Shown here piece after piece: positions 3,719 through 22,443 of a stretch of 22,617 bases of DNA. The DNA is taken from positions 1-22,617 of the IMG/VR virus record IMGVR_UViG_3300035670_001320. The stretch is one strand, 5' to 3'. A model generated the notes under the pieces. It had not been told where the DNA came from. It made no database searches and saw only the letters and a program-made list of their open reading frames with translations. How positions within the stretch are numbered: the stretch's first letter is position 1; each line of letters begins with the position of its first letter. The stretch is from a virus. Made by a program: the position numbers and the translations under genes.

Positions 3719-4708
3719 CTACTTGCGGGACGCAGCGAAGGACTGCGCAGCCTGGTCGCACAGCGCGAGCAGACCACGATCAGCGCTCTTGCCGGCCTCG
3801 GGCTTCTTGCCGTTGTCCGCCTGGTGAGCGAACAGGCCCGGAGGAAGGGTCTCTTCCTGCGAGGGCTTGGCGAGGGAGAGCGCCTCGATCACGGCCGTGA
3901 CCGCTTCGTCGGGCATGGCGGAGAACTTGGCCACATCGGCCTCGGTCAGCTCCTTGCCCACCTTGGCGTAGGCTTCCTTGACGCGAGCCACGCGGCCTTC
4001 GGTCTCCTTCTTAGCGATGGAGGCCTTCAGCTCGTTGAGCTCTTTGGTGAGGGTGTCGGCATTCGTCTTGCTGGCCAGCAGCTCGCCCTCAAGCTGCGCG
4101 ACCTTGGCTTCCAGTTCTTTGGACACTTGGTCCTCCTGTGAAGTAGGGTTGCTGTTGCGGCTGAGGGCAGTAGCGGACGTTCCACTATCCCAGCCAGTGG
4201 GGGTGAAGGAAGTTTCCACGAGCTTGGACTCACGGAAGATGTATGCGGGACCAGTGATGGTCCGGTTGTTGACGACGGTCGTGGCGCCAGCAGCCAACTC
4301 CTCGATACGAGAAGGCTGGATGCGGACGGACATCTGCCAGGGGAAGCCCTCGTCGCTGAGCGCGGTGACCTCCTTGCCGGCGTCCGTGACCTTCGAGAGA
4401 ATGCCACCGAGCACCAACCCGTCAGCCGTGGTGGCGTGTTCGTCGCTGTAGCCAACGATTTCGTCGCCGTCATGGTTGAGGAGGATGGCCATTCGGTCAG
4501 GCACCTGGATCAGCGAGAGGTCAAAGACCACCGCGCCCCAGTAGTAGTGCCCAGTGATGGGGTCGCCCGTGTAGGCCACACCGGAGAAGCGGCGATTCCC
4601 GTCAGCAGCGTCCGACTTGATGCTGGTAGGAATGCCGAACTGGAACGTGAAGTCCTCGGGCTTCGGTATCGTTCCAGCGCTGTTCTTAAATGCAAAGACG
4701 TCAGTCAT
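3719..4708 (-). CDS. Prohead protease with C-terminal scaffold-like region
   Basis: A 329-aa protein. Residues about 20-180 look like a prohead serine protease of the HK97/S78-like group. His79 in the LLNHD motif followed by IVG, and Ser127 in FPWQMSV, are the likely catalytic pair, and RESKLVETSFTP (159-170) matches the conserved post-catalytic strand. Residues about 195-240 form a Lys/Glu heptad coiled coil and the tail is Ala/Lys-rich, so the C-terminus probably acts as the internal scaffold, as in fused protease-scaffold proteins. The start at 4708 was chosen because AAGGAGGTGCCG lies immediately upstream and the homologous region begins here. An upstream in-frame ATG (4837) would add 43 residues that overlap a separate small ORF. 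Codon-frame evidence favours the shorter form. Confidence 0.85.
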   Translation of the reverse strand: MTDVFAFKNSAGTIPKPEDFTFQFGIPTSIKSDAADGNRRFSGVAYTGDPITGHYYWGAVVFDLSLIQVPDRMAILLNHDGDEIVGYSDEHATTADGLVLGGILSKVTDAGKEVTALSDEGFPWQMSVRIQPSRIEELAAGATTVVNNRTITGPAYIFRESKLVETSFTPTGWDSGTSATALSRNSNPTSQEDQVSKELEAKVAQLEGELLASKTNADTLTKELNELKASIAKKETEGRVARVKEAYAKVGKELTEADVAKFSAMPDEAVTAVIEALSLAKPSQEETLPPGLFAHQADNGKKPEAGKSADRGLLALCDQAAQSFAASRK

Positions 4709-4823
4709 CGGCACCTCCTTGGTCTGCGTCTTGGGGTTTGGGCCACTGAGGAGGTGGCCGTGTTGGAACTGGATACCAGCCATAGGGATGTTCGTCATAC
4801 GGGTCGTCGGGGTCGACTGCCAT
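4701..4823 (-). CDS. Small acidic, proline-rich ORF (40 aa) between MuF-ART and protease
   Basis: This is a short reading frame distinct from both neighbours. It starts at ATG 4823 with an excellent SD (AGGAGGAA, six nt upstream), begins 10 nt after the MuF stop, and ends in TGA overlapping the protease start by 8 nt (ATGACTGA). The peptide begins MAVDPDDPYDEHPYGWYPVP, continues through a PPP-containing stretch, and ends acidic (GGADD). It has nine Asp/Glu residues, about ten Pro, two Trp and no Cys. The placement and SD are typical of a translated, coupled phage gene. I recognise no family. It could be a morphogenesis peptide, a partner or immunity factor for the upstream ART domain, or untranslated leader sequence. 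Confidence 0.6.
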   Translation of the reverse strand: MAVDPDDPYDEHPYGWYPVPTRPPPQWPKPQDADQGGADD

Positions 4824-4833
4824 CTATTCCTCC

Positions 4834-6183
4834 TCATGCTCGCTCCTCCAGGAAAATGGTGGAGCCGTCAATTCGCTTGACCAGGAACTTCGTTTCGGCA
4901 GGGAACATCCACTCAAGCTCAGCAGGAGTGGCAGAGATGGCAGAGATGGGGACAGCAGAAGATGCGCCCTTCTCAATGACGAACATCGTGGTCTCGATGC
5001 CGGCAGGTTCTACAGCGAAGGCCGACATGAAGCCCTTCTGCGTGACGGTCTGACCAACCTTGTAGGTCTTTCCGTTGATCACGGCAGCTTCGTCCAGAAC
5101 CTTGACATCACCTCTGGGAGGAATACGGTAGAGGACTGGCGCTTCTGAGGCTTCTCCCATCTGCAAGGTCGCGAAGACGTCGTCAGCCAAGTTCATGGCA
5201 GCTTGGCGAGCGGAGCCGCGAAGACCCAAGTCCCTCGGGATGTCGAGGGAAGAAGGCCTCGCAGCACGCGCCTCCTCAGCGATGGTGCGCAGAGCGACCT
5301 GCTGGTCCTCAGTCAGCTCACCCATCTTGATGAGCGAACCCTTGAAGTCCTCAGCTGCTCGGACAGTTATGGGCTCAGTCGCTCCGGGCATCGTTCTTTC
5401 ACGCAGAGCATCAAGAACTTCCTGCTTCGTTGCTTCGAGCTGCTGCTGAACAGTCTGAAGGTCCTTCACGGCACGAGAGGCTTGGGTCACGTTGATGAGG
5501 TCGTCGAGCAGAGGCTTCTCGAAGCCTTCCATCGCTTGCTGAAGCTGGTCAGAGCCACCCTGGCGGGGAAGCTTGGCCTGCTCAACACCAAAGTCGAACG
5601 CCTCGCCAGGGTTGTAGTCCCAGCCCTTGTCGGTCTTGGGCCAACCCTCGGTCGGCTCTTCGGTGACGCCTCCACGTGCTCGGGCCTGCGCCTCCGTCAT
5701 GCTGATGGTTGAGCAACGGCAGCGGTATCCGTTGGGAGGGTAGTGCGTGGCCCAGAAGGGGTCGTCGATGGGGCGGATGACGTTGTCCAACTCAAGGTGC
5801 GATGGGCGAGTCCGGCTGTCGTTGACCGCATCATACATGAGGTAGGGTCGCGTGCTCTTGAACTTCTGTTGCTGCTGCCAGTGCCCGTGGTTGTAGGCAA
5901 CCTGCATGTTGGTTCGGAAGATGTTGTCGAGACGGTGTTCGGGAAGATTGAGGCCAATCTCTCCGCTCTTGACCTTCTCCTTCCACTGGGCGAACGTGAG
6001 ACCCTGCGTCTGAACCGCCTTGAGCGAATCCAGAACACCCTGCAGCTGGTCGCGAGAAGACACCCCAGCGATGGAGAACGCCATGTCGCGGGTCTTTCCC
6101 TGCAGTCGCCCGTAGTATTCGGACGGAAGCTCCACCCGCCGAGACTCGGCGAAGCGAAGGGCTTCTGCAAAGGTGAGGGGCAT
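4834..6183 (-). CDS. MuF-like minor head protein fused to an ADP-ribosyltransferase-like domain
   Basis: A 449-aa protein. Residues about 1-170 are a Mu gpF/SPP1 gp7-type minor head protein: FRTNMQVAYNHG (89-100), YLMYDAVNDSRTRPSHLELD (114-133), and the WATHYPPNGYRCRC motif (144-157) with its two Cys residues. Residues 210-330 are mostly helical linker. Residues about 330-449 look like an R-S-E class ADP-ribosyltransferase: LYR with Arg353, the GFMS strand with Ser387, and an E422-L-E424 pair followed by MFPAETKFLVKRI, the usual ExE plus 'P..T.F.V' ending. MuF proteins are minor virion components, so the enzyme could enter the host with the DNA. The stop overlaps the next ATG as ATGA. MuF is certain by pattern; the ART domain is likely but not tested by structure. 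Confidence 0.88.
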   Translation of the reverse strand: MPLTFAEALRFAESRRVELPSEYYGRLQGKTRDMAFSIAGVSSRDQLQGVLDSLKAVQTQGLTFAQWKEKVKSGEIGLNLPEHRLDNIFRTNMQVAYNHGHWQQQQKFKSTRPYLMYDAVNDSRTRPSHLELDNVIRPIDDPFWATHYPPNGYRCRCSTISMTEAQARARGGVTEEPTEGWPKTDKGWDYNPGEAFDFGVEQAKLPRQGGSDQLQQAMEGFEKPLLDDLINVTQASRAVKDLQTVQQQLEATKQEVLDALRERTMPGATEPITVRAAEDFKGSLIKMGELTEDQQVALRTIAEEARAARPSSLDIPRDLGLRGSARQAAMNLADDVFATLQMGEASEAPVLYRIPPRGDVKVLDEAAVINGKTYKVGQTVTQKGFMSAFAVEPAGIETTMFVIEKGASSAVPISAISATPAELEWMFPAETKFLVKRIDGSTIFLEERA

Positions 6184-10828: not shown

Positions 10829-11119
10829 ATGTCACGCAAGCATCCTCAGAGCTTTCATGGTCGGTGTAAAGTGGCTGTGGTGAGCACCGACGGGCAGCGT
10901 ATAGAGCTCATACGTGGTCTTCGCTTTAACGGAGAAGAGCACACCTATAAAGAGTGGACCGAGATCAGCGGACTCCCACTTATCAACATACGCCAGAGAG
11001 CATCTATGGGGTGGTCCGCCGAGGACATCCTAACAACAGATGTTGAGATACGTGGCTGCTGTCCTGTGTTCATTTACAAGTCGAAATTGCGAAAGGAACA
11101 GCATGGCAATCACATCTAA
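10829..11119 (+). CDS. Small putative DNA-binding protein (96 aa)
   Basis: A 96-aa basic protein. Residues about 38-68 (TYKEWTEISGLPLINIRQRASMGWSAEDILTT) match a pattern often seen beside HNH or AP2 modules in phage proteins, 'l.eWae.tGi....i..R...Gws.e.aL', which looks like a helix-turn-helix-type module. No nuclease motif (HNH, GIY-YIG) is present, so it may be a stand-alone regulator or a truncated endonuclease relative. GGAG lies eight nt upstream of the ATG. The gene follows the RHH gene by 2 nt and overlaps the primase-helicase start by 17 nt, so the three are one unit. Confidence 0.6.
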   Translation: MSRKHPQSFHGRCKVAVVSTDGQRIELIRGLRFNGEEHTYKEWTEISGLPLINIRQRASMGWSAEDILTTDVEIRGCCPVFIYKSKLRKEQHGNHI

Positions 11120-13169
11120 GTTCAAGAGCCCAGCACAGGTGCGCGACGCCATGCTGGACAAGCTCGAGATGAGCGGCCTCGACGAGGACGACGCGAAGAA
11201 GTTGGGTATGAAGCCCTGCACCGCACAAGCCTCCCCACAAGAGCTCGACGTGCACAAGGCCGGGTTCCTCGTCCCATACTTCGATCTCAAAGGTAAGGTC
11301 ACGAAGTTCTGGCGGTATCGCTACCTCGAAACAGCGAAGGAGGGCTGGGACAAGCTGACCGACAAGAAGGATCGTAGATACTCGCAGGCACCGAAGACCC
11401 TCAACGAGTTCTACCTTCCCAGCCTCGTCAACTGGCGAGACCTTGCAAAGGATGCCTCGAAGTCTCTGTGCATCACGGAGGGTGAGCTCAAGGCAGCTTG
11501 CGGCTGCAAGTATGGCTTCCCGACCATCGGACTCGGCGGAGTTTGGAACTGGAAGAGCACGAAGAACAAGCTGACCACGCTCCCGCAGTTCGACGAATTC
11601 GAGTGGTTGGGCCGAGTGGTCTATATCTGCTACGACAGCGATGCCAGAACCAACCCCATGGTCATCGCCGCCGAGAACGCTCTGGCGAAGGAGTTGCTCA
11701 ATCGCGGAGCGCAGACCTTTATTGTCAGAATCCCGACTCCTCTCGCACAGGGTGGGAAGGCCGGCATGGACGACTTCATTGTGAGTGAGGGAGTCGAGGC
11801 CTTCCGCAACCTTCTCGAGGAGGCGACGCTGTTCGAGATGGCGGAGGAGCTGCTCAAGCTCAACGAGGAAGTCATCTATATCAGCAACCCTGGGTTGGTC
11901 ATCAACCGCGACACACGTGCGAGAATCTCTCCCCACAGCTTCGTCAACCACACCTATGCGAACCGGAAGTTTGTCATACACGTCCCCACCGGAAAGAAAG
12001 GGGAGATGAAATCCCTAGAGAAGAGCGCTCCGAAGGAATGGATCGAGTGGCCGCTCAGGAGCGAAGCGCAATGTATGACGTTCGCACCGGGGAAGGATAT
12101 CATCACCGAGCGCGGGGAATACAACACATGGCGGAACTGGGGCTGCCGACCCGCCGAGGGCAGTGTGGCTCCATTCAAGCAGCTTCTGGACTTTATCTTC
12201 CGGGAAGCGGAGCCCGAAGCACGACGTTGGTTCGAGCAGTGGCTGGCTTACCCGTTGCAGCATCCGGGAACGAAGCTGCTGAGCAGCGTGTTGCTGTGGG
12301 GCCGAGTGCACGGAACGGGGAAATCGCTGGTTGGCTACACCATGTTCAAGATCTACGGTGACAACGCAACGGAGATCAGCGAGCGCGATCTGCTCAGCGC
12401 GCACAACGAATGGGCCGAGAACCGGCAGTTCGTGATGGGCGACGAGATCACCGGCGGTGACAAGCGCCACGCTGCCGACAAGATGAAGTCCATGATCACA
12501 CAGAAGCAGCTGCGCCTGAACCCGAAGTTCGTTGCGAGCTACACGGTGCCGGATTGCATTAATTACTTCTTCACGAGCAACCACCCGGACGCATTCTTCG
12601 TAGAGGACACGGACCGACGGTTCTTTATTCACGAAGTCCGGGGCAACCCGTTGCCGTCTGAGTTCTACCAGAGCTACATGAAATGGCTCGACGGATCGGG
12701 ACCGAGCGCCTTGTTCAATTACCTGCTGACGCTCCCCATGGATGGGTTCAACCCACAGGGCCACGCGCCGATGACACTCAGTAAGCAGGAGATGATTGAG
12801 GACGGTCGCTCCGATGTGATGTCCTGGGTTGATCGGCTCAAGGCTGCTCCGGACATGGTGCTGAGGCTCGGCGACGAGATCCTACGCTACGAACTCTGGA
12901 CCACGAGCGAGCTGCTCGGGATCTACGACCCGACAGGCAATAAGAAGATCACATCGAACGGTATTGGTAGAGCCCTGCGCTCTGCCGGCTTCCACCGGGT
13001 CTACAGGGGGATGCCAGTGCCGACGAAGGACGGACCGCAGAAGCTCTGGGCGATCCGGAACGCACTGAAGCTCGAAGCCATTGAGAACGGTCCCGCACTG
13101 GGGCAGATCTACAACCACGAAAGGGAGGGTAAGACCCGTGAGTCAAAAGCGCGAACCAAAAAGTTCTGA
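11103..13169 (+). CDS. Primase-helicase: TOPRIM-like domain plus SF3-type helicase
   Basis: A 688-aa replication protein. The N-terminal half carries a TOPRIM-type primase domain of the DUF3854 kind: E126 in CITEGE, the GLGGVWNW loop (143-150), and D178-x-D180 in YICYDSD, followed by GMDDFI. No zinc finger is seen. The C-terminal half is a superfamily 3-like AAA+ helicase: Walker A GRVHGTGKS (400-408), Walker B FVMGDE (443-448), sensor FTSNHPDA (490-497) and arginine-finger candidates in DTDRRFF (502-508). It would prime and unwind DNA for the polymerase at 20587. The start at 11103 follows AAAGGA; an upstream ATG (11040) has no SD and overlaps the previous gene. Confidence 0.9.
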   Translation: MAITSKFKSPAQVRDAMLDKLEMSGLDEDDAKKLGMKPCTAQASPQELDVHKAGFLVPYFDLKGKVTKFWRYRYLETAKEGWDKLTDKKDRRYSQAPKTLNEFYLPSLVNWRDLAKDASKSLCITEGELKAACGCKYGFPTIGLGGVWNWKSTKNKLTTLPQFDEFEWLGRVVYICYDSDARTNPMVIAAENALAKELLNRGAQTFIVRIPTPLAQGGKAGMDDFIVSEGVEAFRNLLEEATLFEMAEELLKLNEEVIYISNPGLVINRDTRARISPHSFVNHTYANRKFVIHVPTGKKGEMKSLEKSAPKEWIEWPLRSEAQCMTFAPGKDIITERGEYNTWRNWGCRPAEGSVAPFKQLLDFIFREAEPEARRWFEQWLAYPLQHPGTKLLSSVLLWGRVHGTGKSLVGYTMFKIYGDNATEISERDLLSAHNEWAENRQFVMGDEITGGDKRHAADKMKSMITQKQLRLNPKFVASYTVPDCINYFFTSNHPDAFFVEDTDRRFFIHEVRGNPLPSEFYQSYMKWLDGSGPSALFNYLLTLPMDGFNPQGHAPMTLSKQEMIEDGRSDVMSWVDRLKAAPDMVLRLGDEILRYELWTTSELLGIYDPTGNKKITSNGIGRALRSAGFHRVYRGMPVPTKDGPQKLWAIRNALKLEAIENGPALGQIYNHEREGKTRESKARTKKF

Positions 13170-13506
13170 ACCACGCACGATGGCCAAACGCCACAGGTTG
13201 CCGCACCGAAGGCTGGGCATTCGGATGGTGGTGGGGACCGGCAAGGACAAGGTCCACATGTCTACCGGAGAATACGAGGACGGGACCATTGGGGAGATCT
13301 TCCTGGACCACCAGCGGGAAGGCACGTTCGGGAGGGCCATGATCAACGCATTCGCGATCTCCGTGAGCATCGGGCTGCAGCATGGCATTCCGCTCAAAGC
13401 CTATGCGCACACGCTCAGCGGCCTGAAGATGGAACCTGACCTGATGCGGGGAATCTTCGACGAGCTCAACGAATTCTACGACGACAACGGAAGGTGCCGA
13501 CGATGA
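13138..13506 (+). CDS. Stand-alone TSCPD-domain protein
   Basis: A 122-aa protein. Residues about 20-101 follow the TSCPD pattern known from the C-terminus of B12-dependent (class II) ribonucleotide reductases: LPHRRLGIRMVVG...KVHMSTGEYEDGTIGEIFLD, then the AFAISVSIGLQHGIPLKAYAHTLSG helix pair. In the reductase this tail is a metal-binding accessory region, and free-standing versions are of unclear function. The usual Cys residues are missing in the core and only one Cys occurs near the end. The GTG start was chosen because GGGAGG lies 9 nt upstream; it overlaps the helicase gene by 32 nt. ATG 13180 is an alternative without an SD. No reductase gene is in the window. Confidence 0.75.
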   Translation: MSQKREPKSSEPRTMAKRHRLPHRRLGIRMVVGTGKDKVHMSTGEYEDGTIGEIFLDHQREGTFGRAMINAFAISVSIGLQHGIPLKAYAHTLSGLKMEPDLMRGIFDELNEFYDDNGRCRR

Positions 13507-13967
13507 GCTTGTTTGACTGGATATTCCCTGTCGTTGCGTTCTCAGTGACGCTCTTTCTCTGCTGGCTATTCCGGTGGACGAAAGAAGACCAGAAGGGCTG
13601 GGAGTGTTTGGTCAAAGAAGCCTTTCCTGAGAAAGGAGGACGCGTGTCAAAGTTTAGAGACCGCTATGTCGAGCATTGTGAGGTTGGGAGCAGTAGGAGA
13701 ACACGGGTGTTGGTGTCGCGAGAGAAGGTCTGCAATTGCGGAGGAACGCTCGACAGCCTCAGCGACGAGGAGTGCTTCCGCTGCCAGACAGCCGCGATGA
13801 TCAGCCAAGGAGAGATGGTGGTTCCTCGTGTCTACGGAACGACACACCTAATGTTGGGCCCTGACATCTCTCACATCACCAGACCGATTATGAACAAGTG
13901 CAAACACTGCGGAACCAAGAGCCCGTGCTCTGCGAACCGCTGTTCTTCGTGCGGAGCACCGTTATGA
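13503..13967 (+). CDS. Membrane-anchored zinc-ribbon protein, possible dual start
   Basis: A 154-aa protein. Residues 5-23 (DWIFPVVAFSVTLFLCWLF) form one membrane segment followed by a basic/Trp stretch. Two Cys clusters follow: C77-x-C79 with C91-x2-C94, and C133-x2-C136 with C147-x2-C150, probably two zinc ribbons. An internal in-frame GTG at 13644 (residue 48) has a strong AAGGAGG four nt upstream and would give a soluble 107-aa form without the membrane helix. The gene overlaps the TSCPD gene and the J-domain gene by ATGA. No function is recognised. Confidence 0.7.
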   Translation: MSLFDWIFPVVAFSVTLFLCWLFRWTKEDQKGWECLVKEAFPEKGGRVSKFRDRYVEHCEVGSSRRTRVLVSREKVCNCGGTLDSLSDEECFRCQTAAMISQGEMVVPRVYGTTHLMLGPDISHITRPIMNKCKHCGTKSPCSANRCSSCGAPL

Positions 13968-14314
13968 CAACCCTCTATGCCGTTCTGTCCCTCCCACCAG
14001 CGGCCGACGCCACGGAGATCCGAGATGCCTACCGTGAGCTGGCCCTGAAGCACCACCCCGACAAGGGTGGCGACCACGAGCTTTTCTGCCGGATTACAGA
14101 GGCCTGGGGCGTCCTAGGCGACGCCGAACGCCGGAGCCGCTACGATGCTGAGCTGCGCCTTACTCGGACGACCTGTAGCGTCTGTGGCGGTGACGGACGG
14201 GTCTGGAAGCAGGTTGGGTTCACAACCCGGAAGCCAAGCCCGTGCCCAAAGTGTAAGGGTATCGGGTTCGGCGAGGCACAAGTGCAAGCTGCAAGAGGAA
14301 ATAGAAAGAAGTGA
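13964..14314 (+). CDS. J-domain protein with zinc-finger repeats
   Basis: A 116-aa protein. Residues 3-62 are a DnaJ-type J domain (LYAVLSL..AADATEIRDAYRELALKHHPDK) with the essential HPD at 31-33, which stimulates Hsp70 ATPase. Residues 71-101 contain CSVCGGDG and CPKCKGIG, two of the four CxxCxGxG repeats of DnaJ, enough for one zinc site. The substrate-binding beta domains are absent. It may recruit host DnaK to phage replication or assembly complexes. The start is chosen by the ATGA overlap with the preceding gene. It is the last gene before the first cassette promoter, whose repeat begins at its stop codon. Confidence 0.88.
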   Translation: MTTLYAVLSLPPAADATEIRDAYRELALKHHPDKGGDHELFCRITEAWGVLGDAERRSRYDAELRLTRTTCSVCGGDGRVWKQVGFTTRKPSPCPKCKGIGFGEAQVQAARGNRKK

Positions 14315-14375
14315 AAATTTCTTGAACTTTTCTCTTGCTTTTGCACTTTGGCGCGGTATCTTGAAGTTGCACCGA
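14314..14375 (+). promoter_or_regulatory. Cassette promoter copy 1
   Basis: Here -35 TTGCTT (14335-14340) and -10 TATCTT (14357-14362) are 16 nt apart. The spacer begins with TTGCACTTT and GTTGCAC sits at the predicted start (14366-14372). The stretch is nearly identical to 15203-15265, including an upstream A/T-rich AAAATTTCTT block that could be an UP element. It begins at the stop codon of the J-domain gene. Confidence 0.7.
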
Positions 14376-14407
14376 TGGAAGGTGCCCGAAACCAAAAGGA
14401 GAGCGCC

Positions 14408-14680
14408 ATGATCGAACTCACCAACCTCGAAACCAAGACCTTGGTTGAGGGCATCTTCAGCAACCCGTTCTATGTTGAGAGTGGTTGGGCCTGGGTTGAC
14501 AGCGTTGCTGAGTATGCCGGCATCGAGGGTCCTGAGTTTCGTGGCGTCTTCACCAGCCTAAAGAAGAAGGGTATGGTCGAGCTCGATGGAAACAGTGGCC
14601 GCGATGCCTGTGTTCGCCCGACGAAGCTGGCTTGCGAAGTCACCGGACGCAGCTTCTCCCACCAGCACGATCAAGAGTAG
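14408..14680 (+). CDS. Small winged-helix-like protein (90 aa)
   Basis: A 90-aa protein, the first gene after cassette promoter 1, with leader SD AAAAGGAG. The helix-turn-helix-wing pattern is suggested by WVDSVAEYAGIEGPEFRGVFTSLKKKGMVELDG (about residues 27-59), where 'F.gv..sLkkkGlvel' is the recognition helix plus wing seen in many small phage regulators. The C-terminus is His/Ser-rich. It is a candidate DNA-binding regulator. No specific family is recognised. Confidence 0.65.
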   Translation: MIELTNLETKTLVEGIFSNPFYVESGWAWVDSVAEYAGIEGPEFRGVFTSLKKKGMVELDGNSGRDACVRPTKLACEVTGRSFSHQHDQE

Positions 14681-14685
14681 GCGAA

Positions 14686-14726
14686 ACAGGGCTTCGGCCC
14701 TGTCCGCAGGAACTGCCCTACCTGCG
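14686..14726 (+). other. Tandem hairpins (UUCG tetraloop plus second stem)
   Basis: ACAGGGC-TTCG-GCCCTGT (14686-14703) is a 7-bp stem closed by a TTCG tetraloop. It is followed two nt later (spaced by 14704) by CGCAGG/CCTGCG (14705-14726), a 6-bp stem with a 10-nt loop. No T-run follows, so a classic intrinsic terminator is unlikely. The pair lies between two co-transcribed small genes and may be an mRNA stabiliser, processing site or attenuator. Confidence 0.55.
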
Positions 14727-14765
14727 CTGATGAGCCAGGGCATCCACAACCAAAAGGAGAAAGCG

Positions 14766-14957
14766 ATGACCAACCTGACCCAGAAGTCCACCGCGAAGCG
14801 CGAAGCAGCTATGGCGAACATCACAGTTGCCCTGCAGCAAGTGAACGACCTCCTCTCGCTCCCTCAGAACGACAGCGACTATGCTGAGCTTGAGGGAGCG
14901 AAGGAGCTCCTCGAGATGGCCAAGGACCGCATGGAAATGTTCGGAAAGGAGGACTGA
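14766..14957 (+). CDS. Small helical protein (63 aa)
   Basis: A 63-aa protein, almost fully helical and amphipathic (AKREAAMANITVALQQVNDLLSL...ELEGAKELLEMAKDRMEMF). The start is fixed by the SD AAAAGGAG seven nt upstream in a leader shared with the gene at 15327. The next gene starts 1 nt after its stop. No family is recognised; its size and position fit accessory early phage proteins. Confidence 0.65.
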   Translation: MTNLTQKSTAKREAAMANITVALQQVNDLLSLPQNDSDYAELEGAKELLEMAKDRMEMFGKED

Positions 14958-14958
14958 A

Positions 14959-15204
14959 ATGGACGGTATCAAGGCGTCTACTTCTGCCAGTGGGTTCGCG
15001 AGCCGGTTCGCTGAGTTCGAGACCACCTTCAACGAGCTTCGCGGGGAGGTCCTGGGTGCCATCGCCGACGGTCGGCTTGACCTCGACGAGCTCGCCGCTC
15101 TTCGCGAGAAGGTGGCCACCGTCGCCATGGGCCTCGACTACATTCGCGTCCGGCTCGCCAATGTTGAAGAACTCCTCGTTGTCAGGACTTCTTCCGAAGA
15201 TTAA
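14959..15204 (+). CDS. Small hypothetical protein (81 aa)
   Basis: An 81-aa acidic protein. A Ser/Ala-rich start is followed by helices (RFAEFETTFNELRGEVLGAIADGRLDLDELAALREKVATVAMGLDYIRVRLANVEELL). The middle 'aiaDGrlDldEl..lr' resembles the DG.ld..E pattern of TerB/EF-hand-like small phage proteins. AAAGGAGG lies seven nt before the ATG. Cassette promoter 2 starts at its stop codon. No function is assigned. Confidence 0.65.
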   Translation: MDGIKASTSASGFASRFAEFETTFNELRGEVLGAIADGRLDLDELAALREKVATVAMGLDYIRVRLANVEELLVVRTSSED

Positions 15205-15265
15205 AATTTCTTCAAAATTTCTCTTGCTTTTGCACTTTGCCAGATGTATCGTGAAGTTGCACCAA
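15203..15265 (+). promoter_or_regulatory. Cassette promoter copy 2
   Basis: Here -35 TTGCTT (15224-15229) and -10 TATCGT (15247-15252) are 17 nt apart. As in copy 1, TTGCACTTT follows the -35 and GTTGCAC (15256-15262) lies at the start site. It differs from copy 1 mainly in the GCCAGATG spacer part and a few bases in the AT-rich block. It drives the 188-aa gene after a leader ending in the same CCACAACCAAAAGGAG as the gene at 14766. Confidence 0.7.
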
Positions 15266-15326
15266 TCGCGGTGCTCCCAAACAACCCGGCGCTGGTCGCG
15301 CCACCCACAACCAAAAGGAGTTTACC

Positions 15327-15893
15327 ATGACCGCTCAGCAAACCGTCCGCATCGCCAGCCGCTCCGCCAAGGAGCTGAAGGACGTCAAGACCTTGTTCCT
15401 CGTCAGCGAGGACAAGAAGGTCAAGATCCCCTTCCTCGACATCGAAGCTGCCAAGCACGAGCTTGACAAGCAGCCTGCTGACGCCACCTTCTTCATCATC
15501 GAGTCCCACAACGGTCGCGACGCTGCCGGCAAGGTGCTCGTCGAGCGCAGGGCTGGGGAGCGCCGGAAGGACGACGCCAAGGGTAAGGTGGCCAAGGGCA
15601 TCGCCAAGGCCAAAGAGAAGGCCCAGAAGGCCGATCCGAAGAAGGCCGTCGAGAAGGCCAAGAAGACCGCAGAGAAGTCTGCTCCGAAGTCCGAGGGAGG
15701 CGTCAAGGCCGCGAAGCACGGCGACGACCAGAAGCTCGTTCTTCTCGTGAAAGAGAACCCCAAGCGTGGTTCGTCCGCTGAGCGGTATGAGCTCTATCGC
15801 AAGGCCAAGACCGTGGGCGACTACCTCGCTGCCGGTGGCCTTCGCGCCGACCTGCGTTGGGACGAGGATCACGGATACATCCAGATCGGGTAG
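15327..15893 (+). CDS. Two-domain protein with Lys/Ala-rich histone-like linker
   Basis: A 188-aa protein. Residues 1-73 form a small alpha/beta domain (VRIASRSAKELKDVKTLFLVSED...). Residues about 75-132 are a Lys/Ala-rich, histone H1-like linker (KGIAKAKEKAQKADPKK...). Residues 136-187 form a compact domain with KLVLLVKENPKRGSSAERYELY and TVGDYLAAGG..ADLRWDEDHGYIQI, a pattern I recognise in other phage proteins, without a known function. The linker could bind DNA. It has its own promoter, a good SD (AAAAGGAG, six nt upstream) and a terminator-like hairpin behind it, so it is probably transcribed strongly as a single gene. Confidence 0.75.
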   Translation: MTAQQTVRIASRSAKELKDVKTLFLVSEDKKVKIPFLDIEAAKHELDKQPADATFFIIESHNGRDAAGKVLVERRAGERRKDDAKGKVAKGIAKAKEKAQKADPKKAVEKAKKTAEKSAPKSEGGVKAAKHGDDQKLVLLVKENPKRGSSAERYELYRKAKTVGDYLAAGGLRADLRWDEDHGYIQIG

Positions 15894-15913
15894 TTCCTAC
15901 CAGCCAACTGGTG

Positions 15914-15945
15914 AGTGCCGGGTCACAAGCTCGGCACTTTCTTTG
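15914..15945 (+). terminator. Rho-independent terminator candidate
   Basis: AGTGCCG (15914-15920) and CGGCACT (15932-15938) form a perfect 7-bp stem with an 11-nt loop, followed by TTCTTTG. It lies 20 nt after the stop of the Lys-rich protein, and an upstream ACCAG/CTGGT pair could extend the structure. The T-tract is modest, so read-through into the following small genes is likely. Confidence 0.55.
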
Positions 15946-15957
15946 AAGGAGCACGAA

Positions 15958-16074
15958 GTGACCAGATACTACGATCGCCGCCGGCACACAGGCCCGACCA
16001 GGATTCTCTTCATAGACGTCCGAGACTTCTGGGTGCGGTTCTGTCTCCCACGAATCCAAGGAGCCACCAGATGA
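15958..16074 (+). CDS. Very small basic ORF (38 aa)
   Basis: A GTG-started 38-aa peptide, Arg-rich at the N-terminus (TRYYDRRRHTGPTR), then hydrophobic/aromatic (ILFIDVRDFWVRFCLP), ending IQGATR. AAGGAG lies eight nt before the GTG and the stop overlaps the next ATG as ATGA. Both features argue that it is translated. No homolog is recognised. The upstream in-frame extension lies over the preceding gene in another frame and was discarded. Confidence 0.5.
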   Translation: MTRYYDRRRHTGPTRILFIDVRDFWVRFCLPRIQGATR

Positions 16075-16247
16075 CCAAGATGGGCCCTCCTGCCTTTGAC
16101 GACGACAAGTTCCCATACCCGGCCGAGACATTCTCATTGGCTGGGCAGTGTGGGCAAACCTTCCGCAAACCAAGCCTCGATGAGCTGGACCTTGACTGCG
16201 GGCCAGTTCACGACCGAATCAACTACCTGCAGAGCCACGAGGAGTAG
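16071..16247 (+). CDS. Small hypothetical protein (58 aa)
   Basis: A 58-aa acidic protein with two Cys residues (AGQCGQTFRKPSLDELDLDCGPVHDRI). AAGGAG lies seven nt before the ATG, and it overlaps the preceding ORF by ATGA. The next gene starts 2 nt after its stop. No family or domain is recognised. Compact packing between SD-led ORFs supports its reality. Confidence 0.6.
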   Translation: MTKMGPPAFDDDKFPYPAETFSLAGQCGQTFRKPSLDELDLDCGPVHDRINYLQSHEE

Positions 16248-16249
16248 AC

Positions 16250-16561
16250 ATGCAGACCAACCCTGTAACAAAGTTCAAGCTGCGGTTCAATCGCGTCGAG
16301 TGGGTCGCGACCTACATTGAAGAATACCTCGATGGGCAGCGCCGAGAGCTGTCGTGCCACGCAGCCTCCCCACTCCTGGCGCTGGAGAAGCTGGCGCTTG
16401 ACCTGAAGAAGGACCAGATCATCGAGCTCTACATGGACGGGAACAGCTGGTGCGCCACCTGGGGTGACCACATCGATCTGCAAGCCAGTCCGTCTGGGTT
16501 CGGCGGCTCTCCGTTCGAAGCCCTTCACCAGCTCTACCGTGAAACGATGCGTGCCGTATGA
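16250..16561 (+). CDS. Hypothetical protein (103 aa)
   Basis: A 103-aa alpha/beta protein: KFKLRFNRVEWVATYIEEYLDG, a helix (ASPLLALEKLALDLKKD), strand IIELYMDGNSWCATWGDHIDLQ, then SGFGGSPFEALHQLY. The last block 'G.g.spfeAl..L' resembles small phage proteins that fold like a double-stranded RNA-binding or HicB-like unit, but this is only an impression. GAGGAG lies before the ATG. The stop overlaps the next gene by 4 nt (ATGA). Confidence 0.65.
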   Translation: MQTNPVTKFKLRFNRVEWVATYIEEYLDGQRRELSCHAASPLLALEKLALDLKKDQIIELYMDGNSWCATWGDHIDLQASPSGFGGSPFEALHQLYRETMRAV

Positions 16562-17082
16562 ACATCTTCGTCCTCGACACCGACCCCGCTATTGCGGCTC
16601 AGATGCACTGCGACAAGCACGTGGTCAAGATGATCCTCGAGACTGCTCAGATCTTGAGCACTGTCTGGCACGGCCTCCCCGAGGGAGCCCACTACGCCAT
16701 TCCTGCCGAGGCGTATCGTCCCACCCATCGGAATCATCCGTGTGTCAAGTGGGCCGGCAAGTCCTCAGGCAACTACTCATGGCTCTTCAAGCTTGGCGTT
16801 GCCTTGTGCGATGAGTTCGAGCTTCGCTATGGTCACGCTCACAAAACGCGAGCTGTCTTGCATTCCTTGAGTCGCGTTCCTGCGTGTGTGCGAGGCGGCG
16901 AGATGACTCCATTCGTATGCTGCATGCCCGACGAGTTCATCGTCGCCTACGACAACGCTCGGCGCTCGGGAGACCACGACCGAGATGTCGTGCAGTCGTA
17001 TCGCGACTATTACCGCATGGCCAAGGCGCATCTTCTGATTTACACTAAGCGACAACGCCCAGAATGGCTCGGTGCTGTATGA
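16558..17082 (+). CDS. Conserved phage protein with HCDKH motif (174 aa)
   Basis: A 174-aa protein of a family I have met in many phages under hypothetical or DNA-repair-like names. Conserved-looking residues are the N-terminal FVLDTDP and H17-C-D-K-H21 with VKM, then YRPTHRNHPCVKW (53-65), NYSWLF (72-77), YGHAHKT (91-97), a CMPDE segment, and the C-terminal YRDYYRMAKAHLLIYTKRQRPEW. The concentration of invariant His/Cys/Asp/Lys suggests a metal-dependent or catalytic protein acting on nucleic acid or nucleotides, but no reaction can be named. It is ATGA-linked to both neighbours. Confidence 0.75.
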   Translation: MNIFVLDTDPAIAAQMHCDKHVVKMILETAQILSTVWHGLPEGAHYAIPAEAYRPTHRNHPCVKWAGKSSGNYSWLFKLGVALCDEFELRYGHAHKTRAVLHSLSRVPACVRGGEMTPFVCCMPDEFIVAYDNARRSGDHDRDVVQSYRDYYRMAKAHLLIYTKRQRPEWLGAV

Positions 17083-17330
17083 GTAGCTCTGCGAAAGCGA
17101 AGTTCACGATATGGTCGCGTAGAAAAGTAGAGGTGAATACCGACCCGCTACGACGCTGTTACAATGGTTGCCACTACAGCTCAGTTATGTCTTGGACCCC
17201 GTGGGGCGACTTGTTCGATGTCGACAGTAGAGCGTCAGCTGAAGACTCGGTCGCCACCTTCCAACGCTGCAACCCAACTCATGAATACCAAATTCTGCCA
17301 ATCGGCGTAAAGCCAACTTCAAAGGACTGA
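17079..17330 (+). CDS. Hypothetical protein (83 aa)
   Basis: An 83-aa protein starting at an ATGA overlap with the previous gene. N-terminal basic part FTIWSRRKVEVNTDPLRRCYNGCHYSSVMSWTPWGDLFDV, then ASAEDSVATFQRCNPTHEYQILPI. The C-terminal pattern 'A..sva.f...np..ey.i.p' is common among small phage proteins of unknown role. It contains three Cys and three Trp. The ligase gene begins three nt after its stop. Confidence 0.6.
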   Translation: MSSSAKAKFTIWSRRKVEVNTDPLRRCYNGCHYSSVMSWTPWGDLFDVDSRASAEDSVATFQRCNPTHEYQILPIGVKPTSKD

Positions 17331-17333
17331 ACC

Positions 17334-18218
17334 ATGCTACGACCCATGCTCGCCTCCGCTGTTGAAGACCTCAGCGCTCTCCGCTACCCTCTCCTCGCGA
17401 GTCCCAAGCTCGACGGTGTCCGGGCCATGTGCCTCCCAGGAGAAGGCCTCGTGTCTCGGAACGGGAAGCTCATTCCGAACGAGCACGTGCAGAAGCTGTT
17501 CGGGAGTGCTTCCTGCGCACAGTTCGATGGGGAGCTCATCGTTGGTGAACCGACGGACAAGGACTGCTACCGCAGCACCGTCAGCGGGGTCATGTCGGAG
17601 GACGGAGAGCCCAACGTGACGTTCTACGTGTTCGACCTCATCCCTGGTGAACGGGCCTACGATTTCAAGGACCGACTCGCGAAGGCCAAAGCAGCCGGCA
17701 AGGGATTAGCCAAAGTCAAGGTTCTGCACCACATCACGATCAAGAGCGAGGAGGAGCTGCTCCGCTACGAAGAGGTGTGTCTGGCGAAAGGCTACGAAGG
17801 CGTGATGCTCCGCGATCCAGAAGGACCCTACAAGAACGGCAGGAGCACGGTCAAGGAAGGGTGGCTCCTCAAGCTGAAGCGGTTCGCTGATAGCGAAGCG
17901 AAGATCATCGACACGGTCGAGCTGTGTAAGAACAACAACGAAGCCAAGCGCAATGCCATGGGGTTCACCGAGAGATCCTCCCACAAGGCGAACAAGCAAG
18001 GTGTGGGGAAGCTCGGGACGCTGGTCGTCCAGGACATCAAGAGCAAGGTCCAGTTCGAGATCGGCACCGGGTTCACTGACGAGGTCCGCAAAGAGCTGTG
18101 GGAAAAGCGAGAGGAGATTGTGGGGAAGTTGGTGGTCTACAAGTTCTTCCCCACCGGAAGCAAGGAACGTCCTCGATTTCCTGTCTTCAAGGGCTTCCGC
18201 GACGCACGCGATCTCTAA
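17334..18218 (+). CDS. ATP-dependent DNA ligase
   Basis: A 294-aa compact ligase, shorter than T7 ligase (359 aa). It seals nicks by the lysine-adenylate mechanism. Motif I is K25-L-D-G (SPKLDGVR) with R30, motif Ia SRNG (41-44), E67 in FDGELIV, motif III FYVFDLI (97-103), motif IV EGVMLR (155-160) and motif V LLKLKR (178-183). Residues about 185-294 form the OB-fold with KLGTLVVQD, FEIGTGFTDEVR and the end RPRFPVFKGFR (motif VI-like). All catalytic residues are present. AAAGGA lies before the ATG. It sits in the replication arm upstream of the polymerase. Confidence 0.94.
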   Translation: MLRPMLASAVEDLSALRYPLLASPKLDGVRAMCLPGEGLVSRNGKLIPNEHVQKLFGSASCAQFDGELIVGEPTDKDCYRSTVSGVMSEDGEPNVTFYVFDLIPGERAYDFKDRLAKAKAAGKGLAKVKVLHHITIKSEEELLRYEEVCLAKGYEGVMLRDPEGPYKNGRSTVKEGWLLKLKRFADSEAKIIDTVELCKNNNEAKRNAMGFTERSSHKANKQGVGKLGTLVVQDIKSKVQFEIGTGFTDEVRKELWEKREEIVGKLVVYKFFPTGSKERPRFPVFKGFRDARDL

Positions 18219-18221
18219 AAT

Positions 18222-18254
18222 AATTACACCCGTGTGTAATTTTCCCGCTATAAT
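18222..18254 (+). promoter_or_regulatory. Promoter with embedded operator palindrome
   Basis: AATTACAC (18222-18229) and GTGTAATT (18234-18241) form a perfect 8-bp dyad around CCGT, immediately upstream of a perfect -10 TATAAT (18249-18254). TTACAC (18224-18229) can act as a -35 with a 19-nt spacer. The dyad shares ATTACAC with the boxes in the divergent control region, so one regulator may control both. It drives 18303 and the genes after it. Confidence 0.65.
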
Positions 18255-18302
18255 CTTTTCAGCGACCGAATCCACGAGTCGCGGAACTTGTGAGGAGAGA
18301 AT

Positions 18303-18752
18303 ATGGCCCGAGCAGCCAAAGACCTCGAGGATCAACTCGAGACAGCAGTGAAGAAAGGCCGGAAGGGCGACGAGTTCAAGTTGCCGAAGACCCTGGCTGC
18401 GTGCGCTGACTTGTTCTACCAGACCAAGCAGGCACGGCTCGCACAGCAGAAGATCGTGGACGAGTTGAAGGCCAGGGAGAGTCTCCTCGAGAACCACCTG
18501 ATCGACAACCTGCCGAAGAGCGAAGCCACTGGGGTGGCCGGCAAGGTGGCCCGTGCCTCCGTGATCACCAAGGTCATCCCGACCGTGAACGACTGGGATG
18601 AGTTCTACAAGCACATCAAGAAGACGGGCAACTTCGAGCTGCTTCAGCGTCGCCTCAGCGAGACCGCTGTCAAGGAACGCTGGGAAGAGAAGAAGGTCGT
18701 GCCTGGTGTCGGAACCTTCAACAAGGTCACGATCTCCGTCACCAAGGTGTAG
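18303..18752 (+). CDS. Conserved phage coiled-coil protein (149 aa)
   Basis: A 149-aa basic protein. Residues about 35-75 form a helix or coiled coil (QTKQARLAQQKIVDELKARESLLENHLIDNL). A conserved-looking block follows: PKSEATGVAGKVARASVITKVIPTVNDWDEFYKHIKKTGNFELLQRRLSETAVKERWEEKKVVPGV (about 70-135), a pattern I recognise from replication-region phage proteins without a known function. AGGAGA lies before the ATG, and it has its own promoter at 18222-18254. It may be a recombination or host-nuclease-interacting protein by neighbourhood; that is only inference. Confidence 0.72.
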   Translation: MARAAKDLEDQLETAVKKGRKGDEFKLPKTLAACADLFYQTKQARLAQQKIVDELKARESLLENHLIDNLPKSEATGVAGKVARASVITKVIPTVNDWDEFYKHIKKTGNFELLQRRLSETAVKERWEEKKVVPGVGTFNKVTISVTKV

Positions 18753-18845
18753 CTGTCTGAGCAATGCTCAAGCGTCGTGCTTGCTGGGAGTGCCGGCAGC
18801 AAGTACGACGTATTCTGCTCCGGTGCACTTCAATGGAGGGTAGCC

Positions 18846-19649
18846 ATGGCGGCACCCAAGAAGAAGCCCAGCATGGGCGTCAACAAGTGGGACGAGGAGC
18901 TTGCTCGTCAGGCACAGATGGCCGCTTCTATCGAGGAGAGCGTCATCGTCGGTGGGAACTTCGTGTCGACCCGTGGTGGTCGCCTCAGCTTCAACGGTGG
19001 TGAGGTCCCCGGGAACAAGCTGAACGTCATCATCCTCGACCACGTTCTCGAGAACCACTACTACACGGGAAGGTTCGACCCCGACACCCCGCAGAGCCCG
19101 GTGTGTTTCGCCTTCGGCCGCACGGAAGCCGAGATGGCTCCCCACGAGAAGGCCACCGAGCCCCAGGCCGATGCCTGCAAGGGTTGCCCCCTGAACGAGT
19201 TCGGCTCGGCCGACACCGGGAAGGGCAAGGCCTGCAAGAACATCCGCCGACTGGCTCTGATCCCCGAGGACGCCATCGAAGATCTCGAGGGTGCGCAGGT
19301 CGCCTACTTCAAGGTGCCCGTGACCAGCGTGAAGGCCTGGGCTGGCTACATCCAGCAGCTGGCCAACGTGCTCAAGCGGCCTCCGTTCGCCGTCGTGACG
19401 GAGATCAGCATCGTCCCCGACGCGAAGACCCAGTTCAAGGTCCAGTTCAAGCTGGTCTCGCAGATCGACGATGGCGACCAGCTCGCTGCCCTTCTCGCCA
19501 AGAAGAACGAGATCGCCGAGACGATCGCCTTCCCCTACGCTCCCCCCAGCGAAGAGGAAGAGAAGGTTCCTTTCCGTGGCGGGAAAGCCGTCAAGGGCAA
19601 GCCTGCTCCTCCGCAGAAGAACGCGAAGTTCGCTCGCGGACGGAAGTAG
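18846..19649 (+). CDS. Putative ssDNA-binding-type protein with four-Cys motif (267 aa)
   Basis: A 267-aa protein: acidic N-terminal helices, then beta-rich segments (FVSTRGGRLSFNGGEVPGNKLNVIILD, 39-65), C87 in CFAFG, PHEK, C111-x2-C114 (CKGCPLNEFG), and C130 in GKACKNIRRLALIP, so Cys 87/111/114/130 could hold a zinc. Residues 150-225 have further strands, and the C-terminus is Lys/Pro-rich. Related proteins sit beside polymerase and ligase genes in many phages, which suggests ssDNA binding, but an acidic C-terminal tail typical of SSB is lacking. GGAGG lies seven nt upstream of the ATG. Confidence 0.6.
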   Translation: MAAPKKKPSMGVNKWDEELARQAQMAASIEESVIVGGNFVSTRGGRLSFNGGEVPGNKLNVIILDHVLENHYYTGRFDPDTPQSPVCFAFGRTEAEMAPHEKATEPQADACKGCPLNEFGSADTGKGKACKNIRRLALIPEDAIEDLEGAQVAYFKVPVTSVKAWAGYIQQLANVLKRPPFAVVTEISIVPDAKTQFKVQFKLVSQIDDGDQLAALLAKKNEIAETIAFPYAPPSEEEEKVPFRGGKAVKGKPAPPQKNAKFARGRK

Positions 19650-19651
19650 CC

Positions 19652-19807
19652 ATGAGCCGGAAGACCGCACGCAACCGCGATCGAGTGGTCGACGAAGACC
19701 ACATCAAGCGAGCACACACCAACCACAATCGCCGCCTTAAGCGCGGGTTCTTCAACCACTGGGAGGAGCGCAGCCACGAGAAGCGCTCGAAGAAGGAGAA
19801 GCTGTAA
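19652..19807 (+). CDS. Small basic protein (51 aa)
   Basis: A 51-aa protein that is very Arg/Lys/His-rich (SRKTARNRDR...HIKRAHTNHNRRLKRGFFNHWEERSHEKRSKKEKL), with no hydrophobic core longer than a few residues. It is likely disordered and nucleic-acid-binding. The ATG is two nt after the previous stop with a weak SD, suggesting coupling. The stop overlaps the next start as TAATG. No family is recognised. Confidence 0.55.
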   Translation: MSRKTARNRDRVVDEDHIKRAHTNHNRRLKRGFFNHWEERSHEKRSKKEKL

Positions 19808-19995
19808 TGCGCCTCTACACCGTCACCGACGTCAACGGCAACATCCTGGCCTGGGAGGGCACGCAGGGCGATGCCGCCAAGACCAAGAAGGAGATCAAGG
19901 GAAAGAGCTGGGACCAGTTCGATGTCCCCACCGGCAAGACCGATCTCCTCGAGTTCCTCAACAAGCACGCAGTCCACAAGCCCAGCGAAGACTGA
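19807..19995 (+). CDS. Small hypothetical protein (62 aa)
   Basis: A 62-aa alpha/beta protein (MRLYTVTDVNGNILAWEGTQGDAAKTKKEIKGKSWDQFDVPTGKTDLLEFLNKHA). The final 'vPt.K..Ll.fLN' pattern is one that recurs in small phage replication-region proteins. AAGGAG lies nine nt upstream of the ATG. Function unknown. Confidence 0.65.
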   Translation: MRLYTVTDVNGNILAWEGTQGDAAKTKKEIKGKSWDQFDVPTGKTDLLEFLNKHAVHKPSED

Positions 19996-20049
19996 GCGCA
20001 ACCTCGTCACCAACCACGAGCGCAGAGCGCTCATTCAAAGGAGGCCACC

Positions 20050-20328
20050 ATGGCCAAGCAGAGCCCCGCTGAGCTGAAGGCCCAGCTGAAGACCGAGAGC
20101 ACCAACCTCAAGACCCTCGAGCGCGAGCTGAAGGATCTGCAGGTTTCCCACGACAAGAGCACCATCTCCGAGCAGAAGCAGCGCGAGAAGGCCGCGAAGG
20201 ATCTCGAGCGCGAGCACGACAAGGCCGCTCGTGAGCGCCAGAAGAACATCGATGCCAAGGGCAAGGAAGTGTTCAAGGCGCAGAAGGCCGTCGAGAAGAC
20301 CCAGGCTGAGATCCAGAGGGTCGGCTAG
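20050..20328 (+). CDS. Coiled-coil protein (92 aa)
   Basis: A 92-aa protein that is one long, highly charged helix (Lys/Glu/Gln heptads through most of its length, no Pro after residue 6 and no Cys or Trp), so it is probably a dimeric or trimeric coiled coil. A strong AAAGGAGG lies five nt before the ATG. A GAGCGC-AGA-GCGCTC inverted repeat lies just upstream (20018-20032). A strong hairpin follows at 20348. No function is recognised. Confidence 0.7.
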   Translation: MAKQSPAELKAQLKTESTNLKTLERELKDLQVSHDKSTISEQKQREKAAKDLEREHDKAARERQKNIDAKGKEVFKAQKAVEKTQAEIQRVG

Positions 20329-20347
20329 CTCGTCGAAACCGCAACTC

Positions 20348-20376
20348 GGGAGGGTAGCCGACCCAGCTACTCTCCC
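20348..20376 (+). other. Strong hairpin before the small gene and polymerase
   Basis: GGGAGGGTAGC (20348-20358) pairs with GCTACTCTCCC (20366-20376) through 11 positions with one G-U wobble around a 7-nt loop. It is followed by ACGTTTA and lies 19 nt before the start at 20395. The T-run is short. It may be an attenuating terminator lowering polymerase expression or an mRNA-stabilising stem. Confidence 0.5.
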
Positions 20377-20394
20377 ACGTTTATGGAGGATGCC

Positions 20395-20583
20395 ATGGGG
20401 AGCCCTGCGCTCGCGAACTGGGGTGCGCTTCAGGAAGCGCTGAGAGAAGTGTCCGAAGAGGAATGTTGGCGGCTGCTGACTGAAGAGAAGGCTGTGAAGA
20501 ACCGTGTGCAATTCCTCCTTAGAATCTATGGCCGTGCGAACAGGCTGCGCACCGAGCGCGAACGTCGCGAATTGATGGGGTGA
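20395..20583 (+). CDS. Small helical protein upstream of the polymerase (62 aa)
   Basis: A 62-aa helical protein (ALANWGALQEALREVSEEECWRLLTEEKAVKNRVQFLLRIYGRANRLRTERERRELMG) with the 'L...d..ecw.LL..E...rR..fl.Riy.R.nklR...ER..L' pattern seen in many small phage proteins of unknown role. The start at 20395 is preferred because GGAGG lies five nt upstream. An ATG at 20383 has no SD and would consume the SD itself. It lies 3 nt before the polymerase ATG. Confidence 0.68.
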   Translation: MGSPALANWGALQEALREVSEEECWRLLTEEKAVKNRVQFLLRIYGRANRLRTERERRELMG

Positions 20584-20586
20584 GAG

Positions 20587-22443
20587 ATGGCTATTCCGAA
20601 ACCAATCGTCATCGACTTCGAGACCGAGGGAATCCAGGGAAGGCCTCTCTACCCACCGAAGCCCGTCGGGTTCAGCATCAAGCGACCGAGCGATCGTCGC
20701 TCTCAGTATTTCGCCTGGGGCCACCCCACCGGAAACAACTGCGACTTCGGGAAGGCCAAGCAGGTTCTCCGCGATGCGTGGACCAGCGGACAGCCGCTGC
20801 TCTTCCACAACGCCAAGTTCGACGTTGACGTCGCCGAGACCCACATGGGCATGCCGCGGATTGACTGGCGGTTGATCCACGACACCCTCTACCTGCTGTT
20901 CCTTCACGACCCCCACGCGACGAGCCTCAGCCTGAAGCCGGCAGCTGAGCGCCTTCTGGGCATGGCTCCGGAAGAGTGCGATGCTGTCCGTGATTGGCTT
21001 GTCGACCAGAAGATCTGCAAGAAGAACGAGCGCGGTTGGGGAGCCAACATCTGTCTGGCGCCTGGTGATCTCGTCGGGAAGTATGCTGACGGCGACGTCA
21101 TCCGCACCGACAAGATGTTCAAGATGCTCTGGAAGGACATCTACGATCGCGACATGGTCGAAGCCTACGACCGTGAACGACAGCTAATGCCGCTCCTTCT
21201 CGATAATGAGCGCGGGGGTGTCCGCGTTGACATGAAGTCTCTTCGTGAGGATCTCGCGACCTACACTGCTTCGATGGAACTGGCTGACATCTGGCTTCGG
21301 AAGCGGCTCAAGGCCAAGGACCTCAACATCGACTCCGACGAAGACCTCGCCGATGCGCTGGAGAAGGCCGGAGTCGTCACCCAGTGGACACTCACAGCGA
21401 CAGGCCAGCGTAGTGTCGCGAAGAAGAACCTGACGCCTGACATGTTCGAGGACCCCAAGGTCGCCCGAGCACTCGGATACCGCAACCGTCTCGCCACCTG
21501 CCTGGGCACGTTCATCAAGCCCTGGCTGCTCGTCGCTGAGCGATCCAATGGCCTCATCTACACCAGCTGGAACCAGGTTCGTCAGAGTCACGGGAACGAC
21601 CAGTTTGCTGGTGCGCGAACGGGTCGTATGAGCAGCAACCCGAACTTCCAGAACATTCCCAAATCGTTCTACGACAAGGATGACGGATACGAGCATCCGA
21701 AGCACATCGCTGTCCCCGAGCTGCCGTTCATGCGCAAATACTTCCTCCCCGACAAGGGAGGCGTCTTCTGCCACCGCGATTACAACCAGCAGGAGCTCCG
21801 CATCCTGGCCCACTTCGAAGACGCGAGCCTCTGCGCAGCCTACAACGAGAACCCGCTCCTCGACGTTCACACCTTCGTTCAGACGGAGATTGAACGGCTC
21901 TTCGGTCTGAAGCTCGAGCGCCGACCTGTGAAGATCCTCAACTTCGGCATGATCTACGGCATGGGATTGGCCAAGCTGGCCATCGGTATCCACACCAGCG
22001 TCGAGGAGGCCAGGAAGATCAAGGATGCGCAGAGGAAGGCCATCCCCGGCCTCGCTGTCCTAGAGCGCACCATCAAGGAGCTGGGGAAGGCTGGTGAGCC
22101 CATCCACACCTGGGGTGGCCGGCAATACTACACTGAGCCGCCGAAGATCATCGATGGTCGGACGCAGACCTACGAATACAAGCTGCTCAACTACCTCATT
22201 CAAGGTTCCGCTGCCGACTGCACCAAGCAGGCCATCATCAACTACCACGAACTCAAGAAAGACAGCCGCCTCCTCACGACCGTGCACGACGAACTCAACA
22301 TCTCCGCTCCGAAGAGCGCGGTCAAGCAAGAGATGGCTCTTCTTCGCGAGGCAATGCAGTCTGTCAAGTTCGATGTTCCTATGCTCAGCGACGGGAAGGT
22401 CGGGCCGAATTGGGCGTCGCTGGAAAAGTTCAAGGAGAAGTGA
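20587..22443 (+). CDS. Family A DNA polymerase with 3'-5' exonuclease
   Basis: A 618-aa replicative polymerase with no 5'-3' exonuclease domain. Exo I is D10-x-E12 (VIDFET), exo II is HNAKFDVD (74-81, D79) and exo III is Y166-x3-D170, so proofreading is intact. Template motif: ARTGRMSSNPNFQNIP (343-358). Palm motif A is D398-YNQQELR, motif B is R445-x3-K449-x7-Y457 with F453 at the position that decides dideoxynucleotide discrimination (Phe as in E. coli Pol I, unlike Tyr in T7), and motif C is H567-D-E569. YLIQGSAADCTKQAI (536-550) is also conserved. The SD is weak (GGGGTGAGAG). The motif A sequence differs from the usual DYSQIELR at two positions, as in many phages. Confidence 0.97.
   Translation: MAIPKPIVIDFETEGIQGRPLYPPKPVGFSIKRPSDRRSQYFAWGHPTGNNCDFGKAKQVLRDAWTSGQPLLFHNAKFDVDVAETHMGMPRIDWRLIHDTLYLLFLHDPHATSLSLKPAAERLLGMAPEECDAVRDWLVDQKICKKNERGWGANICLAPGDLVGKYADGDVIRTDKMFKMLWKDIYDRDMVEAYDRERQLMPLLLDNERGGVRVDMKSLREDLATYTASMELADIWLRKRLKAKDLNIDSDEDLADALEKAGVVTQWTLTATGQRSVAKKNLTPDMFEDPKVARALGYRNRLATCLGTFIKPWLLVAERSNGLIYTSWNQVRQSHGNDQFAGARTGRMSSNPNFQNIPKSFYDKDDGYEHPKHIAVPELPFMRKYFLPDKGGVFCHRDYNQQELRILAHFEDASLCAAYNENPLLDVHTFVQTEIERLFGLKLERRPVKILNFGMIYGMGLAKLAIGIHTSVEEARKIKDAQRKAIPGLAVLERTIKELGKAGEPIHTWGGRQYYTEPPKIIDGRTQTYEYKLLNYLIQGSAADCTKQAIINYHELKKDSRLLTTVHDELNISAPKSAVKQEMALLREAMQSVKFDVPMLSDGKVGPNWASLEKFKEK

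Follow-up and report, generated by a model that had tools for sequence, protein, structure and literature searches.

Unannotated small overlapping ORFs are a general class in phage structural operons. A more specific setting has been described for genes encoding MuF proteins: 89.4% of MuF toxin genes precede an ORF of less than 150 aa, compared with 25.5% of short MuF genes, and toxin-domain MuF proteins have been reported from temperate phages only (PMC5576092). The ORF considered here (ORF40) can be compared with both. With the small overlapping ORFs of structural operons it shares a Shine-Dalgarno sequence, shortness, a stop-start overlap and a narrow distribution, although no known member of that class is recognisably homologous to it. 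It is also like the small ORFs downstream of MuF toxins, being short, family-less, and placed directly after a MuF gene whose C-terminal domain is enzyme-like, but differs from them in showing no co-variation with that domain.

The stretch analysed (the window) is a 22.6-kb virus record of 22,617 nt, with a head operon on the minus strand. The operon begins with a terminase small-subunit-like gene, large terminase, an 88-aa ORF, a Mu-type portal (PF06074) and MuF (PF04233), and continues with ORF40, a head maturation protease (PHROG 3244), a decoration protein (PF02924) and the major capsid protein (PF03864). A divergent replication arm occupies positions 11040-22443 on the plus strand, and includes genes for a DUF3854/DUF5906 primase-helicase-like protein, a DnaJ-domain protein, a pyrimidine dimer glycosylase-like protein, an ATP-dependent DNA ligase and a family A DNA polymerase. 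The features around the junction of MuF and protease are the following.

4834-6183, minus strand: MuF (Phage_Mu_F) minor head protein (Pfam PF04233, E 2e-23), with an ART-like C-terminal domain at about residues 320-445
4709-4837, minus strand: alternative frame that would extend the protease N-terminus by 43 aa, judged not to be real
4829-4834, minus strand: ORF40 Shine-Dalgarno sequence AGGAGG, 5 nt before the ATG and identical in the relative L002
4701-4823, minus strand: ORF40, an acidic, Pro/Tyr/Trp-rich small ORF of 40 aa with a calculated pI of 4.05
4714-4720, minus strand: protease Shine-Dalgarno sequence AAGGAGG, inside the 3' end of ORF40
3719-4708, minus strand: head maturation protease carrying a fused scaffold-like coiled region (PHROG 3244, E 4.7e-34), true start judged to be at 4708

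The ORF40 product, read from 4823 to 4701 on the minus strand, is MAVDPDDPYDEHPYGWYPVPTRPPPQWPKPQDADQGGADD. The MuF stop codon (TGA, 4836-4834) is followed by 10 nt (GGAGGAATAG) and then the ORF40 ATG, with the first A of the AGGAGG supplied by the final base of the TGA. At the other end, ORF40 and the protease gene share 8 nt (ATGACTGA), running from the protease ATG (4708-4706) to the ORF40 stop (4703-4701). The first-pass annotation had described a 40-aa ORF after the MuF gene in a frame other than that of the protease; its coordinates, sequence, start and stop proved exact, as did the spacing of the Shine-Dalgarno sequence, the 10-nt gap to the MuF stop and the overlap with the protease ATG. 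Proline accounts for one quarter of the residues of the acidic peptide. Because 46% of random 40-codon stretches in the window are open, an open frame of this length is unremarkable by itself. The unusual feature of ORF40 is its Shine-Dalgarno site, which is nearer to consensus than those of several adjacent head genes (MuF, portal). An exact AGGAGG is found 3-9 nt upstream of just 11 of the 1072 start codons heading ORFs of at least 30 aa in the window; among these 11 are the starts of the protease and of a 257-aa gene (73-846), and a conserved nested start considered below. The peptide has no family match in Pfam or PHROG. Its structure model, built from a two-sequence alignment (pLDDT 68, pTM 0.17), has no strand and no helix of four residues, only one three-residue helical turn, and the peptide is probably disordered.

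IMG/VR was scanned with ORF40 (as an alignment), MuF, protease, portal and capsid, and only two records emerged as close kin: L002 (17.5 kb), whose protease is 80% identical to that of the window, and L003 (48 kb), with a protease 67% identical and head genes 62-85% identical. L002 has an ORF40 homologue at L002:2892-3008, with a GTG in place of the ATG start, 38 aa and 68% identity. Between the 40-aa and 38-aa proteins 26 residues are identical, including an unchanged first 14, and the 6-nt difference in length is in frame. The frame is open, the Shine-Dalgarno sequence is retained letter for letter, and the 8-nt stop-start overlap with the protease (ATGNCTGA) is the same in both. In L003, MuF and protease are separated by 71 nt without ORF40, and no copy was found elsewhere in the 48-kb record at E values up to 10. 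No ORF40-like peptide was seen in other loci (protease 31-51% identical) where the upstream region was read, nor among phage records with blastn and tblastn, though a Pro-rich query could be missed there through low-complexity filtering; GTDB genomes yielded distant protease relatives only. The L002 copy is thus the sole homologue across the phage records, IMG/VR and GTDB searched.

The protease start and its AAGGAGG site are kept in both L002 and L003. The protease gene also has a nested in-frame start (CAGGAGGACCAAGTG; window 3719-4126, minus strand) that would yield a 135-aa scaffold-like product (MSKELEAK...), an arrangement reminiscent of lambda C/Nu3. The start codon here is GTG in both the window and L002 and ATG in L003, and the L004 protein has an M at this position. 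The window, L002 and L003 all carry the AGGAGG, and the surrounding DNA has 0-1 differences per 81 nt between the window and L002.

Whether ORF40 codes separately depends in part on how the protease gene begins. As an N-terminal part of the protease, the stretch would belong to a 372-aa protein starting at ATG 4837, which overlaps the MuF stop (ATGA) and is preceded by its own candidate Shine-Dalgarno sequence (GGAGGAG, in GGAGGAGCGAGC). Since ORF40 and the extension frame each have a possible Shine-Dalgarno sequence, these signals alone cannot choose between the frames. Codon usage does not favour ORF40 either: its codon score is below all 40-codon pieces of known genes, if above 99.2% of off-frame pieces, and that of the extension frame is slightly higher. 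Both the window and L002 leave the extension frame open, but a stop codon closes it in L003, so that in-frame continuity with the PHROG 3244 protease is not kept, and the L003 protease begins at the equivalent ATG with AAGGAGG. A short protease N-terminus (M...FKN) is common to the window, L002, L003 and L004, and the PHROG 3244 match, aligning protein residue 44 to profile position 51, leaves space for about 7 residues rather than 43. The gene downstream is thus a member of this family, while ORF40, in another frame, is not part of it. Substitutions point the same way. Over 101 aligned nt there are ten differences between the window and L002, distributed 3/2/5 over the codon positions of ORF40 and 2/5/3 over those of the extension, where position 2 is the most often changed. 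With the start codon set aside and the remaining nine differences placed randomly, ORF40 has 4 changed residues against 6.3 expected and the extension frame 6 against 6.0; random placement gives as few in 7.5% and 63% of trials, respectively. This pattern favours the ORF40 frame but is suggestive only, not being significant alone (p = 0.075). Taken with the L003 stop, it leaves an extended protease very improbable. Separate translation of the ORF40 frame, as the first-pass annotation proposed, is supported by the retention of Shine-Dalgarno sequence, start, frame and overlap in L002, with L003 contradicting the extended protease. That annotation had named relatives losing the ORF with the extension frame left open as evidence to look for against it; in L003, the relative without ORF40, the extension is closed as well. 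The same retained features weigh against a non-coding spacer or decaying sequence, open by chance and with an incidental AGGAGG, for which the frequency of open stretches, the intermediate codon score and the mere 71 nt without any such ORF in L003 can be cited. The first 81 nt of ORF40 differ at 8 positions between the window and L002, whereas the rate at protease third positions (106 differences in 328 codons) would predict about 26. Its flanks are far less alike, with unrelated MuF C-terminal cassettes upstream and 24-33 differences per 81 nt at the protease 5' end. As about a fifth of 81-nt windows in the operon are conserved to this degree, the conservation of ORF40 is gene-like, not exceptional. 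A spacer seems rather unlikely on these figures, and ORF40 is probably a genuine small gene specific to its lineage, its translation being predicted from the conserved start signals.

The first-pass annotation also offered ORF40 as a candidate immunity or inhibitor peptide, which would follow MuF polymorphic toxin logic with the ART-like domain as its target. The MuF domain itself is clear, but the ART assignment of the C-terminus is weak. The Pfam match (E 0.0085) does not reach the curated cut-off, profile matches to ADP-ribosyltransferases in the PDB, including XopAI and a PAAR-repeat protein, have E values of 7e-4 to 0.02, and the domain model is poor (pLDDT 36). The window and L003 share 56% identity over this region, and LYR, GFMSAF and ELE stretches in their alignment could represent an R-S-E signature. 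In L002, MuF (L002:1377-2651) keeps the N-terminal ~220 residues, after which comes another domain carrying HEVGHH; this domain is HEXXH metallopeptidase-like and weakly matches a PHROG of phage metallo-proteases (E 0.006). A 77-aa orphan ORF (L002:2648-2881) overlaps the MuF stop there and is followed by ORF40, to which it has no similarity. From about MuF residue 220, identity between the window and L002 is at background level, and it returns at the ORF40 Shine-Dalgarno sequence; the ends of the exchanged cassette are at about 5500-5560 and at 4834 of the window, on the minus strand. By this comparison ORF40 is on the protease side of the exchange breakpoint, and the 77-aa ORF would be the better candidate partner of the MuF cassette, if there is one. 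ORF40 does lie immediately downstream of MuF (10 nt) and at 40 aa is well within the 150-aa limit, in line with the figures for small ORFs behind MuF toxins (PMC5576092), but it does not travel with the toxin domain. It persists in L002, where the metallopeptidase-like domain and its own 77-aa ORF take the place of the ART-like domain, and is absent from L003, which retains that domain. Since each of these relatives has one without the other, ORF40 and the ART-like domain are, to judge from gene content, independent of each other. The records of the window, L002 and L003, which may be fragments, yielded no tyrosine integrase, and this makes a need to protect lysogens doubtful. The immunity proposal is not upheld by these comparisons, and such a role appears improbable. 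A virulent lifestyle, if true here, would be unusual for a phage with a toxin-domain MuF (PMC5576092). Another possibility, an RNA switch, arises from CCACCTCCTCA inside ORF40 (window 4747-4757, minus strand), which is complementary over 8 nt to each of the ORF40 and protease Shine-Dalgarno sites and might pair with one or the other; if it did, the relative output of MuF and protease/scaffold would depend on ORF40 being translated. The joint 8 + 8 nt complementarity is reached in 0.26% of codon-order shuffles, but it was noticed after the fact, the two sites share an AGGAGG core, and in L002 complementarity extends to only 7 and 5 nt. The switch was not accepted. RNA folds of the whole region were no better than those of shuffled sequences (z -0.4 and 0.6), and a switch of this kind is hardly to be expected.

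There remains the question of what a translated ORF40 would do. The reading preferred here, with a probability of roughly 0.5, is that it is a lineage-specific small gene serving most likely as a translated link between MuF and protease, that is, in translational coupling. Ribosomes would start at its own strong Shine-Dalgarno sequence right behind MuF, make an acidic, Pro-rich and probably disordered peptide of 38-40 aa, and stop within the protease start region, where the 8-nt overlap would allow them to re-initiate. ORF40 would in this way couple the MuF gene, with its exchangeable 3' cassette, to the protease/scaffold gene. The anatomy is that of termination-reinitiation, since the stop-start overlap is conserved in the window and L002 and the protease Shine-Dalgarno sequence is embedded in the 3' end of ORF40. 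A coupling role is suggested by this arrangement; evidence against it comes from L003, where the protease gene does without an ORF of this kind. Alternatively, the peptide itself could act in trans as a small accessory factor in head assembly, for instance as a disordered linker or a partner of scaffold or protease. Its place inside a portal-MuF-protease-decoration-capsid operon, its association with the protease side of that operon in L002, and the 26 identical residues with their unchanged first 14 are all consistent with this. It has no family match, however, and, with L003 managing without it, heads of this type do not need it; such a factor is possible, if not probable. As L003 lacks ORF40, neither its peptide nor coupling through it can be essential for heads of this type, and any function of the peptide would be accessory.

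Overall, ORF40 appears to be a small orphan gene in a phage structural operon, mostly ordinary and of the sort that annotation could lose within an extended protease start. In this group of phages it marks one end of an exchangeable cassette encoding the MuF C-terminus. It is also a clean example of a toxin-like neighbour suggesting an antidote, with two relatives then dissociating them, and co-variation with the toxin domain should be checked before a downstream ORF is named an immunity gene.
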